Source: a bacterium 1XD21-70 | GTDB lineage: Bacteria > Bacillota > Clostridia > Lachnospirales > Lachnospiraceae | Assembly: GCA_003669055.1 (NCBI GenBank) | Contig: RAYB01000014.1 | Span: forward strand, 1 to 64,000 | DNA length: 64,000 nt | Direction of reading: 5' to 3' | In this document: positions 21,092-25,966 of the stretch, in pieces | Layout: each line of letters starts with the position of its first letter | Position numbering within the stretch: position 1 is the first letter of the stretch | Position numbers and translations under genes: made by a program | The notes under the pieces: generated by a model | What the model was told of the DNA's origin: nothing | The model's database searches: none | The model's input: only the letters and a program-made list of their open reading frames with translations

Positions 21092-21895
21092 TCATGCGGG
21101 GGAGCCGAAAAATCGGGATAAGTACTCTACCGCATGCAACAGCCCATCCTCGCCTATGGGGCCGGTGACAAAATCTGCCGCCGCCTTCACCTGGTCATTG
21201 CCGTTTCCCATAGCGATGCCGATGCCGGCATAGCGGATCATGGGGATATCGTTGTATCCGTCCCCGACGGCGGCGATTTCGTTTTGGGAATATCCATAAT
21301 GTTCCATGATTTTTTGGATTCCCAGACGTTTGCCGCCGCCTTTGGGCGTAATGTCAAAGGCTCCGCCGTCATGCCAGCTGGTGACATCGCACAGTGGGAG
21401 CCGGGCGGCAAAAAATTCGGCGGGCAGGTTCTCGGAAAAAGGGCTCATCTGATAGATGGGATGAAGCAGCCCCCGTTCCATATGCGGCTCGACAGGAGGG
21501 ATGGCTGTGCCGATCTGAGCCTGGAGTTTCTCAAGCTGGGAAGTGATATGGCTCACATACAGGGAACTTTTTTCCATAAAAAGCAAGGCAAAGCCCAATT
21601 CTTTTTGCAGTGTAAGGATGGTTTTTACCTGGGAGGCAGGGATAGGGTTCTCATACAATGGAAAAAGGCCGGCGTCCAGGCAGAGGCTGCCGTTCAGCAG
21701 CACATAGCCGTCAAAAACAAGCCCATCCAGAAGGTTTTCCTCTTGGATTTCTAAAAGATGCCTTCCGGTGGCGATGAAGCAGCGGACACCGTGGTTTTTG
21801 GCCAGGCTGATGGCCTGGCGTGTTTTTGGGCGGATCCCTTTTTCCGTAAAATCTCTTAAGGTTCCGTCAATGTCAAAAAAGATCGCTTTTATCAT
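21092..21895 (-). CDS. HAD superfamily Cof-type phosphatase
   Basis: The 267-residue cytoplasmic sugar-phosphate or nucleotide phosphatase belongs to HAD class IIB. The nucleophile motif FFDIDGTL is at the N-terminus, motif II lies in FIATGRH, and the metal motif GDGYNDIPM comes near residue 220. It overlaps the end of the WYL gene upstream by 23 bases, so the three minus-strand genes form one unit. It converges on the zinc-ribbon gene with only 10 bases between stops. AAAGGAG precedes the ATG. Confidence 0.88.
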   Translation of the reverse strand: MIKAIFFDIDGTLRDFTEKGIRPKTRQAISLAKNHGVRCFIATGRHLLEIQEENLLDGLVFDGYVLLNGSLCLDAGLFPLYENPIPASQVKTILTLQKELGFALLFMEKSSLYVSHITSQLEKLQAQIGTAIPPVEPHMERGLLHPIYQMSPFSENLPAEFFAARLPLCDVTSWHDGGAFDITPKGGGKRLGIQKIMEHYGYSQNEIAAVGDGYNDIPMIRYAGIGIAMGNGNDQVKAAADFVTGPIGEDGLLHAVEYLSRFFGSPA

Positions 21896-22910
21896 AATAG
21901 CTGTCTCCTTTCCTGCCCATGGGCAGCGCCTGGTTCCCGACCCGCTCCCGTATCCGGTCCAGGAAGGGTTTGGGTCCTAGTACTTTCACCACCGGGCCGA
22001 AGGAGAGCACCTGGACTAAAAGTTCCGTCTCCCAGCGCTTGTCATAGTAGATGGTGCAACGGTAGGTTTTTCCGTCTTCCTGCCGTTCCACCTTCTTTTG
22101 ATAGCAGGCGAAGTGGAGCATGGCACGTTCCAGGGCATTCCGTTTGGTGGTGACCTCCAGCACCAGCGGCTTTTCACACAAAGACCGGTCCAGGAAATGG
22201 TCCACATCAACCAAGGCAGGGTAATACCTGCCTGTTTTTTGGATGGAAAGGATCCTGGCCACATTCAGGACATCCATCCGTTTCCTGCCCGTCTTGCCAA
22301 AAGCCATGGCATAGAGCCGGAATTTCCCGTCCCTCTGTCCGTATTCCAGGCGGCAGGGAAGCCAGGTATGGGTAAGGATCTTTTTCTTGCGGGAAAGGTA
22401 ACCGACAGACAGGAAATGCCTCTCACAGATGGCGTTTAAAATAACCAGCATATGCTCCCGGTACATGGCAGATGAAAAGGGGTCATGGTCCCCATACTGG
22501 TCAAAGAGGGAGAAATCCGTGGTGCGGTAGAGGGGAGGCGTGTCCCAAAGCGCTTCCTCCAGTTCCTTTAACTGGGAATCCGTAAAAAACAGACGGAACC
22601 GGGCATCTGCGGCCAGTGCCTTCAGCCAGGATTTCTGCAGCCCGGTGAGGGGTTGGGGGAACGGGTCATTTTTCAGGACAGAGGCATAGGTATCAGGGGG
22701 ATGCCCATCCTGGCTAAAAAAAGGCCAGTCCCCCTGGATCAGCCGCGGGACGATGGAGAGCGCGCTTTCATCATAGCCATGCTGCCGGGCCAGATTTTCC
22801 ATCTGGCGGCGGGTGAGGGGATGGCGGGCGGCCTCGCTGAGGATCCGGGCAACCACCTGGTAATAGCAGGTATAAAGTTCGGAAAAAAGGGAAAAATCAT
22901 GGCTTTTCAT
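21873..22910 (-). CDS. WYL-domain transcription regulator, second of a pair
   Basis: The 345-residue protein has a helical DNA-binding N-terminal part and a WYL-type domain in the middle (about 160-260, LEYGQRDGKFRLYAMAFGK), followed by a WCX-like C-terminus with VVKVLGPKPFLDRIRER. ATG 22910 lies inside the last codons of the first WYL gene, which suggests coupled translation; an in-frame start at 22934 is possible. WYL domains bind ligands, in known cases often nucleic-acid or nucleotide-type molecules. Their position, divergent from a tRNA-like RNA and a slipin, suggests they control that unit. Confidence 0.82.
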   Translation of the reverse strand: MKSHDFSLFSELYTCYYQVVARILSEAARHPLTRRQMENLARQHGYDESALSIVPRLIQGDWPFFSQDGHPPDTYASVLKNDPFPQPLTGLQKSWLKALAADARFRLFFTDSQLKELEEALWDTPPLYRTTDFSLFDQYGDHDPFSSAMYREHMLVILNAICERHFLSVGYLSRKKKILTHTWLPCRLEYGQRDGKFRLYAMAFGKTGRKRMDVLNVARILSIQKTGRYYPALVDVDHFLDRSLCEKPLVLEVTTKRNALERAMLHFACYQKKVERQEDGKTYRCTIYYDKRWETELLVQVLSFGPVVKVLGPKPFLDRIRERVGNQALPMGRKGDSYYDKSDLF

Positions 22911-24180
22911 GTTCGGCGGCATCTCCTGTGGCAAAATAGTATTCCTTCATTTTCTGCATATCATCCCAGAACCGCTGTTCCACGGCAGGGTTGGAGCAGT
23001 AAAAGGCACGGATCCTCCCGGTAAAGCTTTTGGCCCAGGGGAGGAACTCTGTGGCATCTGCACAGAGGCGTGTATATTGGTAGACCCCAGGCTTAAGCCG
23101 GTTTAAGGATCCGCCCCGTCCTTCCCTCTGCAGCCGGTTGAGGATAAAATCCTCTTCCTTTTCGTCAAAGCAGACCTCCATGGTGACGGTTTCCGGCCCG
23201 GTTTTTGGCAGGCTGCCAAAGGAAACGCCCCAGACATAGGGGAGGGCACGCTGGAGGGAGGCCATGTGGGTATCGTAAAGGGCATCCGGCAAAAGCAGTT
23301 CCACATTTTGGATGGAGTCCAGGCGGAAGGTGGAAAAGCAGCGGGTACGTTCCTGCCAGGCACAGAGGTACCTCCGTCCTGTCTGGGTGCTGGTGAGGAT
23401 CTTTAGGGGGGTGGCGTCCAGAAAACGGGCAGGGCGGCTGGAGGGCACGGCTGTGTTCTTGGTGCTTTTGGCTGTGATGCGGATCTGGCATTTCTGCTCC
23501 ATGGCACGTAAAATGGGCAGAAGTACCTCATCTTCTAAAGTGTGGATCAGGTAATCGCTGCGGAAACGGAAGAAATCATTTTTCTGGTTCCAGAAATCAA
23601 GGATCGTGCTGCCAATAAAGCCAAAGGGGGCAGCACCCTGGAAAAAGCTGACGGCCAGCCAGAGGGCAGGGAACAGGCCGGGGTGGGCCTGGGGGAGAGG
23701 GGCGGTGATGCCGTACAGGTATTGCTTCCCCTCTTTTTTCCGTATGGCCAGGCCTTCTTTTTCATAGAACGCCAGTTTCCGGCGGATGGTTTGGGTGTCA
23801 AACAGGCAGTGGTACTGTTTTTGCAGTTCATCGGCAATGGTTTCTATGCTTCTTGGCCGCCCGTCGGAGAGCAGGTCCGGCAGGAAAAAGCGCAGGGAGA
23901 TATCATTGCCGGTGAAGGCCTTTGATTTCCAGGCCTGGTATAAAGGGTTTACGGCCATGCGGCCGGAGTCTAAGGTGAGGAATACCGATTTTTTGTGGCC
24001 ATTCTGTTCCGTGCGTATGTAACCGGAGAACCAGCTTTCCATGCGGCGGCGCTGGTTGTCGTAGGTTCGGCCGCTTTTCTCGCAGAAATCGTCCCTGGTT
24101 TTAAAGCCGTAGATATAGAAGTCGCGGACATAGGAGCGTATTTTGTCAAATTGTTTGATCAGTTCTTTGTATTCGGACAT
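22897..24180 (-). CDS. WYL-domain transcription regulator, first of a pair
   Basis: This 427-residue regulator has an N-terminal helical section (about 1-60), a winged-helix part (about 85-160, with LLSDGRPRSIETIADELQK), a WYL domain (about 240-320, with TGRRYLCAWQ and FRLDSIQNVE) and a C-terminal WCX-like domain. AAGGAA lies 6 bases before ATG 24180. It starts the minus-strand operon and is transcribed away from the structured RNA region at 24303-24871, with about 90 bases between its start and the opposing promoter. Paired WYL regulators may work as a heteromer. Confidence 0.83.
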   Translation of the reverse strand: MSEYKELIKQFDKIRSYVRDFYIYGFKTRDDFCEKSGRTYDNQRRRMESWFSGYIRTEQNGHKKSVFLTLDSGRMAVNPLYQAWKSKAFTGNDISLRFFLPDLLSDGRPRSIETIADELQKQYHCLFDTQTIRRKLAFYEKEGLAIRKKEGKQYLYGITAPLPQAHPGLFPALWLAVSFFQGAAPFGFIGSTILDFWNQKNDFFRFRSDYLIHTLEDEVLLPILRAMEQKCQIRITAKSTKNTAVPSSRPARFLDATPLKILTSTQTGRRYLCAWQERTRCFSTFRLDSIQNVELLLPDALYDTHMASLQRALPYVWGVSFGSLPKTGPETVTMEVCFDEKEEDFILNRLQREGRGGSLNRLKPGVYQYTRLCADATEFLPWAKSFTGRIRAFYCSNPAVEQRFWDDMQKMKEYYFATGDAAEHEKP

Positions 24181-24269
24181 GTGTATTTCCTTATATAGGC
24201 AGGGAGTAGCAAATTAATTCAAGTATACAGAAAAAACGGTTTAAAAACAACAAAAACTTCGCAGTGTTT

Positions 24270-24298
24270 TTGAAATGATCCTTATTTCCTCTTATGGT
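24270..24298 (+). promoter_or_regulatory. Possible promoter of the tRNA-like RNA
   Basis: TTGAAA (24270-24275), 17 bases, TATGGT (24293-24298). It would start transcription near 24305, just ahead of the structured region. The -10 is imperfect, so an activator may be needed. Confidence 0.45.
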
Positions 24299-24302
24299 AG
24301 GA

Positions 24303-24551
24303 TATAGGTACCGAAGAGGTGATGGTTCCGGCTTACAGACATGGCATTTAAGCCATGCGGTGCCGCTGCCCTGCAGTACGGTATGCCGCCGGAGGCATGG
24401 AATGACACTCAGTTAGGGACTTGAGAATGTCAAATGACTTGATTTACGTGGGTTCAAATCCCACCGGTGAAAAGCCGTTGCTTAGTGGTAAAGCGATCAA
24501 ACGACACCTTCCAAGTGTCTCTCCAGATGAGGAAGACGTGGAACCAGCCGG
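24303..24551 (+). ncRNA. Bacterial Y-RNA-like transcript with permuted tRNA mimic
   Basis: A tRNA T-arm (stem GTGGG/CCCAC, loop TTCAAAT, 24448-24464) is followed by a short capped stem CGG/CCG (24465-24477) and then a D-arm (GCTTAGTGGTAAAGC, 24480-24494). Next comes a hairpin with stem GACAC/GTGTC and the 7-base loop CTTCCAA (24503-24519), an anticodon arm with UCC in anticodon position. T-arm before D-arm, joined by a closed acceptor-like hairpin, is the permuted order reported for YrlA-type bacterial Y RNAs. TGGTTCC (24323-24329) and GGAACCA (24540-24546) can close the whole domain. CATGGC/GCCATG (about 24342-24360) makes a 5' hairpin. It cannot be a working tRNA as there is no acceptor end or CCA. 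The ends are estimates. Confidence 0.7.
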
Positions 24552-24871
24552 CATATCCCGCTGTTTTCGGCGGGGATGCAGCAGAGGGATTGCCTGTGCC
24601 GCCGAAGACGGCAAAACCGTATCTGATCCCATGGTTCGTACCAGAAAGCCAATGCTTTGGCAAACCTATGTGCTTTGGCCTTAGGGAAGCAAAAGGCAGG
24701 AAGCCCCATGGGGACGGAAAGCCGGATAAGATATGGTTTTGATGGTCCGGACGGCCCGCAAAGCCTTCTGCGGCGGGTTCCAGGTTGGAATCACAAGCCA
24801 GGGAAAGAGTGCAGGAACAAAGAGAAGAGAAACAAAAGGAGCGGGGGATACCCGAATGGAGGAGGGAAGAC
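24552..24871 (+). other. Hairpin-rich leader between the tRNA-like RNA and slipin
   Basis: This has no plausible gene but several stems: ATCCCGC/GCGGGGAT near 24555-24577, GCCG/CGGC at about 24600-24615, GCCA/TGGC near 24648-24663 and CCCCATGGGG near 24705-24714. The stretch may be the 3' part of the same RNA or a structured leader of the slipin message. The order of stems does not match any riboswitch I know. Confidence 0.5.
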
Positions 24872-25966
24872 ATGAAAATTCAGATCAATCAGAACCAGTG
24901 CGGATTTTTATTAAAGGACGGATGCTTTGTAAAGACGCTTGCCAGCGGAACCTATCATTATATGAAGGCATTGGGCTATGAGGCCGTGGTGGAAGAGATG
25001 GAGGGCGCTGTGAAGTTTGACAAGGTGCCAAGGGAGGTTCTGCTGGAACGGGATCCGGCATTTGCAGGGAAGGTGCTTCCTGTCATGGTTCCCGAGGGCC
25101 ATATCGGGATCCTGAAGGAAAGCGGGGTGGCAAGGCAGATCCTTGTGGAGGCGGAGTATCTGTACTGGAATGTGTGGAACCGCTATAGCGTGGAACTTTT
25201 GGACATGAGGGAGCCGGAGGCGGCCAATGAGGTCAATAAGGCTTATCTGGCACGCATTCCGCTGAAATATTACAAAAAGGTCGAGATCCAGCCGGGAGAG
25301 TTGGGGATCCTGTATTATGATAACCAGGTGGTAAAGGAACTGGGTGCAGGAACCTACTATTACTGGGTGTATTCCAGGGATGTGCTGTGCAGGGTCGTGG
25401 ACCTGAAGGTAAAGCCCCTGGAGATAACCGGCCAGGAGATCCTGACTGCGGACCGGATCGGGGTGCGGATTAACCTGATGTGTACATACAAAGTGGTGGA
25501 TCCGGGAACCATGATCGAGACCATCAAAAACCTGGAGAACCAGGTATATGCCTGTGTGCAGCTGGTGATCCGGGAATATATCGGCAGATACCGCCTGGAT
25601 GAACTTTTACAGCAGAAGGAGGAGATCTCCCAATTTATTTTTAAGCGGCTGAAAGAGGCAGAAGGGGATTACTGCATTGAGTTTCGCAGTGCAGGGATCA
25701 AGGATATCATCCTGCCGGGGGAGATCCGGGACATCATGAACACGGTGCTGGTGGCGGAGAAGAAGGCCCAGGCCAATGTGATCACCAGGAGGGAGGAGGT
25801 GGCCTCCACCCGGTCCTTGCTCAACACGGCGAAGCTGATGGATGAGAACAAGACGTTGTATAAACTGAAGGAAATGGAATGCCTGGAGAGGATCTGCGCC
25901 CAGGTGGGGAATATCCAGGTGGGCGGAGGTGCGCTGCTAGAGCAGCTGCAGGCATTGGTGAGATAA
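24872..25966 (+). CDS. Slipin (SPFH/band-7 family protein)
   Basis: The 364-residue member of the stomatin/prohibitin family begins at ATG 24872, with AGGAGG 8 bases upstream. The SPFH domain spans about 130-300 (ELGAGTYYYWVYSRD, then VRINLMCTYKVVDP and YIGRYRLDELLQQKEEI). The C-terminal part (AEKKAQANVITRREEVA) is a predicted coiled coil for assembly. No clear membrane segment is seen. In other bacteria slipins occur in operons with RNA ligase RtcB or other RNA-repair genes (Burroughs and Aravind's surveys of RNA repair), but no rtcB is in this window. The gene may be co-transcribed with the tRNA-like RNA. Confidence 0.85.
   Translation: MKIQINQNQCGFLLKDGCFVKTLASGTYHYMKALGYEAVVEEMEGAVKFDKVPREVLLERDPAFAGKVLPVMVPEGHIGILKESGVARQILVEAEYLYWNVWNRYSVELLDMREPEAANEVNKAYLARIPLKYYKKVEIQPGELGILYYDNQVVKELGAGTYYYWVYSRDVLCRVVDLKVKPLEITGQEILTADRIGVRINLMCTYKVVDPGTMIETIKNLENQVYACVQLVIREYIGRYRLDELLQQKEEISQFIFKRLKEAEGDYCIEFRSAGIKDIILPGEIRDIMNTVLVAEKKAQANVITRREEVASTRSLLNTAKLMDENKTLYKLKEMECLERICAQVGNIQVGGGALLEQLQALVR

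Follow-up and report, generated by a model that had tools for sequence, protein, structure and literature searches.

Bacterial Y RNAs are known partners of Ro60 and are linked to RtcB-type RNA-repair operons (PMC7790460), and two papers describe a permuted tRNA mimic in them (PMC7790460, PMC11472068), the second by superposing Y RNA 6CU1 on tRNA in permuted order. In Pseudomonas aeruginosa, the rtc locus includes an SPFH gene, and the passage describing it does not mention a tRNA-mimic leader (PMC13086221). In eukaryotes, the vault comprises major vault protein (MVP), vault RNA, and TEP1 with its TROVE domain (PMC13174449 and PMC13347060). Here, we describe a tRNA-like RNA element directly upstream of a gene for a slipin-type SPFH protein in contig RAYB01000014.1 of the Lachnospiraceae bacterium 1XD21-70, a gut bacterium whose genome assembly (GCA_003669055.1) comprises 4.3 Mb in 137 contigs. 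The window, that is, the whole stretch of 64,000 nucleotides that was analysed, is contig C22 of this assembly.

Bacterial Y RNAs have so far been understood through Ro60. If the interpretation offered below is true, a tRNA mimic partnered with an SPFH protein separates the role of the RNA from Ro60, and the slipin family gains a testable role in RNA repair. The loci amount to a natural swap experiment: the tRNA-shaped module and the WYL regulators are shared, and the accompanying protein is one of two. We found no description of a tRNA mimic upstream of slipin in the literature on slipin, WYL, RtcB, Y RNA, and vaults; key works on Y RNA and on RNA-repair diversity lie outside this coverage, and a prior description is possible.

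A circularly permuted tRNA-like fold in the slipin leader

The circularly permuted tRNA-like fold occupies positions 24439-24500 on the forward strand of the window. From 5′ to 3′, it consists of an exit stem, which takes the place of the anticodon stem, a variable loop of 4 nt, the T-arm, an acceptor with a cap, U8, and the D-arm, as follows.

24439..24443, forward strand: 5′ strand of the exit stem, TTGAT (the 3′ strand of the anticodon stem in the permuted cloverleaf), partner 24496-24500
24444..24447, forward strand: variable loop TTAC, the final base of which is position 48 of the 15-48 pairing
24448..24464, forward strand: T-arm of 5 bp, GTGGG/CCCAC, loop TTCAAAT; 100% of cells paired, double changes at 3/5 pairs
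24465..24477, forward strand: acceptor stem with a short-loop cap and without a free 3′ end; double changes at 5/5 pairs, 83.9% of cells paired
24478..24479, forward strand: positions 8-9, UU; U8 in 72/76 loci
24480..24494, forward strand: D-arm of 4 bp, GCTT/AAGC, loop AGTGGTA with A14, G15, and G18G19; 96.1% of cells paired
24496..24500, forward strand: 3′ strand of the exit stem, ATCAA, pairing with 24439-24443
24503..24519, forward strand: separate hairpin GACAC-CTTCCAA-GTGTC with an anticodon-loop-like 7-nt loop, 3′ of the exit stem and outside the cloverleaf

A preliminary description of this region had located the T-arm and the D-arm at exactly these coordinates, with a capped stem between them, and had proposed the permuted order of YrlA-type RNAs, with T before D and a capped acceptor, which is supported by covariation. 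It had also assigned 24503-24519 as the anticodon arm. This hairpin is real, but it is a separate 3′ hairpin outside the cloverleaf, because the exit stem fills the anticodon-stem position. The exit stem itself (24439-24443/24496-24500) and the RNA-repair operon context had been missed. The element lies within the extent first given to it (24303-24551), but the conserved leader is longer on both sides, starting near a promoter-like site at 24270-24298, with blocks shared by close relatives running toward the slipin start at 24872.

The fold was assessed in an alignment of 77 loci (A3), the window's locus among them. This alignment omits loci of the same genomes under other ids (L003, L005, L006, L008, and L009), repeat sequences (e.g. 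L050), and loci with a wrong or doubtful parse (L011, L031, L076, L093, and L112); no automatic parse was obtained for L055, L058, L074, L078, and L102. In A3, 93.1% of cells were paired compared with a shuffled mean of 69.7%, a percentage that is partly by construction because the locus script required a paired T-arm and D-arm; neither the exit stem nor the 15-48 pair was required. Cells changed on both sides numbered 251 (84.0 when shuffled), and the covariation score was 0.596, compared with 0.156 for shuffled alignments and 0.169 for the best slid control. All 5 exit-stem pairs were present in 65/78 loci and at least 4 in 75/78, and 500 shuffles of the partner strands gave a mean of 23.5 and a maximum of 33 fully paired stems versus the 65 observed.

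The tertiary pair 15-48 was G-C in 64/76 loci and A-U in 8/76, and the total of 72/76 compares with a maximum of 66 in 10,000 shuffles, with relatedness of the loci uncorrected. The A-U pair is carried by Lacrimispora and a related record (L041-L043), by other Lachnospiraceae (L069, L097, and L109), by a Roseburia record (L094), and by a Coriobacteriia record (L110). L010 and L032 were left out of this count and of the count of hairpins after the exit stem (76 loci), and L083, whose parse is shifted by one, was scored as a failure in the 15-48 count. The D-loop has A14 in 75/76 loci and GG in 76/76, the latter by construction because GG was required by the search script. When 23 longer leaders were folded by RNAalifold with no structure supplied, a 5′ hairpin that we call the foot, the exit stem, the T-arm, the cap, the D-arm, and a second T-arm were all predicted. 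Based on these results, the tRNA fold is supported at both the secondary and the tertiary level. Covariation and conservation had been named beforehand as the test by which the preliminary description could be refuted, and the outcome favours it.

Two other origins were considered and rejected. The single-sequence minimum free energy of 24303-24551 is unremarkable (z -1.55; for the leader as a whole, the fold is more stable than that of shuffled sequences, z -3.41), but the comparative evidence against a chance fold is decisive. A coding origin was rejected as the helices covary and the loop lengths vary. The element has neither the free acceptor end nor the linear-order cloverleaf of a tRNA gene. 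ARAGORN, one of the checks proposed for the region, made one call, at 24384-24473 with a 4-nt anticodon, which was judged to be an artefact in all but its T-arm.

In 32/76 loci, the hairpin that comes next on the 3′ side of the exit stem has a 7-nt loop, 5 of these 32 being T-arms, and U is found at position 33 in 25 of the 27 loops that are not T-arms. The leaders of L080, L090, L096, L100, and L104 have a second T-arm directly after the anticodon-like hairpin, giving a unit of anticodon arm and T-arm.

The element recurs upstream of related slipin genes

A scan of genome contigs with a slipin alignment gave at least 551 candidates encoding a relative, of which 80 loci were taken, and an RNA model of the permuted core (R1) was built largely from these loci. 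The R1 element was found upstream of slipin in 75/80 loci (E<=0.01), a count that is partly by construction. The misses were L058, L074 and L078 (64 and 221 nt of upstream sequence), L102 (701 nt), and L112, which is marginal (E 0.0098). R1 recovered L093, L076, and L055, the last with the element ∼2.9 kb upstream of slipin.

Slipin was present in 8/293 Clostridia genomes, source genome included. Among the other 7, which are outside the model, R1 matched strongly next to slipin in 4 genomes and weakly (22.3 bits) in 1. In a sample of 299 genomes from the phylum, 4 besides the source genome had slipin. Bare R1 counts (287/293 genomes) are meaningless because R1 also matches tandem tRNA genes; for the genome-wide search, the 30 best matches were therefore inspected and only those outside ARAGORN tRNAs used. 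Besides the window, six such matches were obtained, four beside slipin and two beside TROVE (wider flanks). Many Lachnospiraceae carry the element, as do some other Clostridia. At L186:511-641, the permuted tRNA mimic is present as two consecutive copies ahead of slipin, and RtcB lies upstream of both (L192).

The slipin loci have an RNA-repair neighbourhood

The genes that adjoin the element in the window are the following.

24872..25966, forward strand: slipin-type SPFH protein of 364 aa with three N-terminal beta repeats; PF01145, 5.6e-26
22897..24180, reverse strand: WYL-domain regulator A of 427 aa, divergent from the RNA; PF13280, 24.3 bits (cut-off 21.8)
21873..22934, reverse strand: WYL/WCX-type regulator B of 353 aa, TTG start, overlapping regulator A; PF25583 (WCX), 22.2 bits, just under the cut-off of 23.9

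When the neighbours of 83 loci were clustered, slipin was found in 83, two WYL-type regulators in 63 and 55, and RtcB in 60, and the next family in 7. Among the 80 related loci, at least one WYL-type gene was present in 61, WYL matches with room for two genes in 58, and RtcB in 61; the two WYL references cross-hit (e.g. in L042), and the WYL counts were rechecked for that. The association with slipin and a WYL pair, first noted in the window, is supported by these related loci. In the subset of 55 loci whose upstream sequence extends for at least 6.5 kb, the counts were 45 for WYL (room for two), 41 for RtcB, 2 for RlaP-type genes, and 0 for TROVE and for RtcR, and RtcR was likewise found in 0/80 clostridial loci. 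L043 and Citrobacter each have an identified member of RlaP (RNA repair pathway DNA polymerase beta family); an RlaP-type cluster was seen in 4/83 loci, with PF10127 in the two members scanned.

The usual arrangement has WYL-B and WYL-A divergent from RtcB-RNA-slipin, and elsewhere the order is WYL-WYL-RNA-slipin-RtcB; the RNA is directly upstream of slipin in both. The operon context is one of RNA repair, and the window's own slipin locus is without a local RtcB. Among other members of the genus, G005 and G013 (L117 and L119) have a high-scoring RtcB without a slipin of this family, and in G010, G012, G014, and G022 slipin and RtcB lie on separate contigs.

The same core precedes Ro60 genes

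R1 matches that were neither tRNA nor slipin led to TROVE genes. TROVE was present in 5/293 Clostridia genomes, and the R1 core lies upstream of TROVE (Ro60) in 5/5 of these. A WYL pair is present in 3/5. One tRNA-mimic module therefore goes with two proteins, Ro60 and slipin. The window's element shares with the bacterial Y RNA YrlA (Rfam RF02553) the permuted tRNA-like domain and the capped acceptor, and its relatives share the link to RtcB-type RNA-repair operons. Unlike YrlA, it has slipin downstream and no Ro60/TROVE in its locus or genus (0/24 genomes); this absence, already noted for the window, extends to 0/80 related loci (tblastn, one TROVE reference).

The Rfam search proposed in the preliminary description did yield a YrlA match in the window (24427-24510, 27.7 bits, E 0.0027, model positions 1-114), but its score is far under the gathering score of 69, and a tmRNA fragment match on the window's T-arm alone had a lower E (0.00082). 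The highest YrlA score of those obtained was 46.5 bits, over the full length, on a TROVE-type clostridial leader, and slipin-type L096 scored 36 bits over positions 23-89 only. No Rfam gathering score was reached in the window or 8 relatives. The YrlA cut-off does not separate slipin-type from TROVE-type RNAs, because the TROVE-adjacent RNA also fails it.

The slipin-type RNA differs from the Ro60-type in its 5′ foot, which is kept in many slipin-type leaders and was modelled as R2.

24359..24387, forward strand: 5′ foot hairpin GGTGCC...GGTATGCC; seen in alignments A1 and A7 and in the A6 consensus fold, and with model R2

R2 was matched at E<=0.02 in 30 of 47 held-out slipin loci, some of them close to training rows, and in 0/5 clostridial TROVE leaders. 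Within Clostridia, the foot appears from these sequence matches to go with slipin.

By eye, a GAGNTACTTC-like string recurs in clostridial TROVE leaders, and those of L176-L179 appear to contain two or three successive Y-like stems, in which GAGNTACTTC-like strings are repeated and only one stem carries the tRNA mimic. In another locus (L158:2601-4178), a HEAT-repeat protein follows Ro60, and the WYL pair and the tRNA-mimic RNA are also present.

Proteobacterial slipin loci

Slipins of the same family are found with RtcR, RtcB, and RlaP in proteobacterial loci, as in the rtc operon (RtcR-RtcB and SPFH). Unlike that operon, the clostridial loci have the WYL pair in place of RtcR, and no RtcA-like cluster was noticed among the frequent clostridial neighbours. 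In 8 proteobacterial loci, where slipin has 34-38% identity to the nearest reference, we found RtcR in 6, RtcB in 5, and RlaP in 6; two Escherichia coli records have RlaP only. In the RtcR-type loci, slipin is immediately preceded by a tRNA-mimic leader and followed by RtcB or RlaP. WYL is thus not needed for the pairing of slipin with a tRNA-mimic leader, because this pairing also occurs where the regulator is RtcR; the earlier suggestion that the WYL proteins may bind the RNA gained no support here.

A T-arm is present in all seven proteobacterial leaders read (Citrobacter, the two E. coli records, three Burkholderia, and Photobacterium; the L174 leader is outside this set), and the Burkholderia and Photobacterium leaders also have D-arms, in linear rather than permuted order. 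Of four leaders scored with R1, Photobacterium reached 37.5 bits; for the others only the T-arm was matched, at 12.3-15.8 bits. Homology of these leaders to the clostridial element is suggestive, not proven. A megablast of E. coli genomes with the Citrobacter region gave no match, and a phage search gave one partial match.

The modules of L126, L172, L173, and L127:4660-4820 (Burkholderia and Photobacterium) are linear and tRNA-like with a closed acceptor stem, and Photobacterium has two in a row. By eye, several proteobacterial leaders are preceded by a TGGCAC...GC element, which we take to be a sigma-54-like motif.

The slipin protein and a comparison with the vault

Across the 80 contigs, identity to the slipin of the window is highest in a Lachnospiraceae metagenome-assembled genome (MAG; 89%), followed by a Clostridiaceae isolate (87%) and by Hungatella MAGs, those among the nearest having 83-86%. 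The Band 7 domain (PF01145) was found in 54/54 aligned sequences (A4). The AlphaFold2 model of the full protein (predicted local distance difference test, pLDDT, 81.6; predicted template modelling score 0.58) has N-terminal beta repeats, an SPFH domain, and a long helix with pLDDT mostly 50-70; the N-terminal part modelled alone reached 94.7. The three repeats are mutually related (hhalign probability 96.3-98.4%). No membrane segment was seen in the 54 sequences (top 19-residue Kyte-Doolittle mean 1.46) by what is a simple test without a positive control.

When the full model was compared with known structures, stomatin and prohibitin ranked first. In the 50 matches listed, alignments that begin at residue 1-2 are confined to MVP, with seven entries (Z 10.1-11.5, root mean square deviation 6.5-9.5, and 8-9% identity); the other MVP entries in this list align only from residue 128 or later. 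The N-terminal model alone was best matched by SPFH proteins such as erlin and prohibitin (erlin Z 6.4 over 42 residues), with MVP at Z <=4.0, and the vault reading suggested by the full-length model is weakened because this search fits SPFH proteins better. The N-terminal fold had no Foldseek match in the PDB at E<=0.001, and the 16 Pfam families listed for the 54 sequences at E<=0.1 include no vault family. The slipin locus resembles the vault in an SPFH-type protein, tandem N-terminal beta repeats, a long helix, no membrane segment seen, and a small structured RNA adjoining; unlike the vault protein, slipin has three predicted repeats, not nine. Judged from these models, the apparent parallel is one of layout.

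A proposed slipin partner RNA and alternative explanations

Our preferred reading, which we rate at about even chances on the comparative sequence evidence, is that the element is a Y-RNA-like partner RNA of slipin, not Ro60, within an RNA-damage response. The slipin leader would then be a bacterial Y-RNA-type RNA made of the 5′ foot and the permuted tRNA domain, with further tRNA-like pieces on its 3′ side. The foot would bind the SPFH protein, slipin would oligomerise, and the tRNA-shaped domain would recruit or occupy proteins that act on damaged tRNA (RtcB, RlaP, or RNases, for example); alternatively, this domain might act as a gate through which broken tRNA reaches the particle. Sensing of RNA damage by the WYL pair would turn the unit on. 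The analysis itself shows the fold with its conservation, its place beside slipin across different gene orders, RNA-repair genes as neighbours, and a core of the same kind beside Ro60 that lacks the slipin-type foot. In this scheme we infer that the RNA acts in trans, that it binds slipin, and that the WYL proteins sense RNA damage. A bolder form, which we regard as rather unlikely, would be a Ro60-free Y ribonucleoprotein: an RNA-repair particle with a soluble, repeat-bearing SPFH cage and its own permuted tRNA-mimic RNA, a counterpart of the vault in layout for which Ro60 and slipin would be interchangeable shells.

Several observations weigh against a slipin partner RNA. The element is patchy in the wider samples: an R1 match is absent in G102 and G265 of the Clostridia class sample (G102 has a foot match, E 0.0074), only 1/4 slipin genomes of the phylum sample has a convincing match (two in tandem), and a match in G625 sits in an apparent tRNA array. 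L058 keeps the foot without the tRNA core (L058:7660-7990), for which either a naturally occurring deletion or an error of assembly may account. In 13 more distant slipin loci, R2 matched at E<=0.02 in only 3, gave in-place matches at E 0.17-1.6 in 3, and had none in 7; it matched 0/6 proteobacterial leaders, where the mimic is linear or minimal. The RtcB-profile matches of the source genome are distant (E 2.4e-63 and 1.9e-37) and on other contigs; the best RtcB of seven genus members gives 1e-110 to 1e-114. A search of the stretch from the tRNA core to slipin, in the window and two relatives, revealed no intrinsic terminator, so that the RNA is at least partly an mRNA leader and a cis role fits equally well; in the terminator search of relatives, the foot of L048 itself scored as terminator-like.

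The main rival is such a cis-acting sensor, in which binding of the leader by a tRNA-handling protein, or cutting of the anticodon-like hairpin by an anticodon nuclease, would alter the stability or translation of slipin mRNA. It is consistent with the length of the leader (∼560 nt if transcription starts at ∼24305) with no terminator-like site before slipin, with the position of the leader between the two genes in RtcB-RNA-slipin loci, and with the recurrence downstream of a U33-type hairpin of 7-nt loop and varied triplets. This hairpin is not universal, however, and the same core lies before Ro60, where such RNAs are ribonucleoprotein partners; we consider the sensor possible but doubtful. 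Less probable still, in our judgment, is a decoy, an RNA that titrates anticodon nucleases or enzymes that modify tRNA, or that RtcB ligates as a substrate, with slipin a mere neighbour. The anticodon-loop-like hairpin, the second T-arm of one subgroup, and the frequency of RtcB in these loci speak for it, as does a suggestion that the tRNA-like domain of YrlA may competitively inhibit a nuclease; the same source reports that YrlA fragments were not detected (PMC7790460). Also against a decoy, the non-tRNA matches examined all lie directly upstream of slipin or Ro60, even without RtcB, as in the window. Decayed tandem tRNA genes, with the T-arm of one tRNA followed by the D-arm of the next, have a very small probability: tRNA arrays do match R1 and are its main source of false positives, but the short covarying cap, the exit stem, and the 15-48 pair, a T-arm to D-arm distance of only 15 nt in the window, and the lack of any ARAGORN tRNA bar one odd call all argue otherwise, and this origin was rejected as refuted by covariation.

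Other features of the leader

Further features were read from the window on either side of the tRNA-like domain.

24252..24271, no strand assigned: conserved block AAAAACTTCGCAGTGTTTTT, overlapping the -35 hexamer by two bases; a possible operator, judging from its sequence
24270..24298, forward strand: predicted sigma-70-like promoter TTGAAA-17-TATGGT, consensus matches 9/12
24858..24866, forward strand: slipin ribosome-binding site GGAGGAGGG, read from the sequence

From the predicted promoter position, transcription would start at ∼24305, which would give the leader length cited above. A long-range closing stem, seen by eye, may pair 24380-24392 with 24548-24558 around the tRNA domain. Block AAAAACTTCGCAGTGTTTTT is identical or near-identical in L002, L003, L006, and L007 (alignment A1). 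A TTCGCA...TTTTT block, which may be the terminator of an upstream gene or an operator, precedes the leader in the window (24252-24271), at L058:7670-7695, and in the L067 and L106 leaders, often within an inverted repeat.
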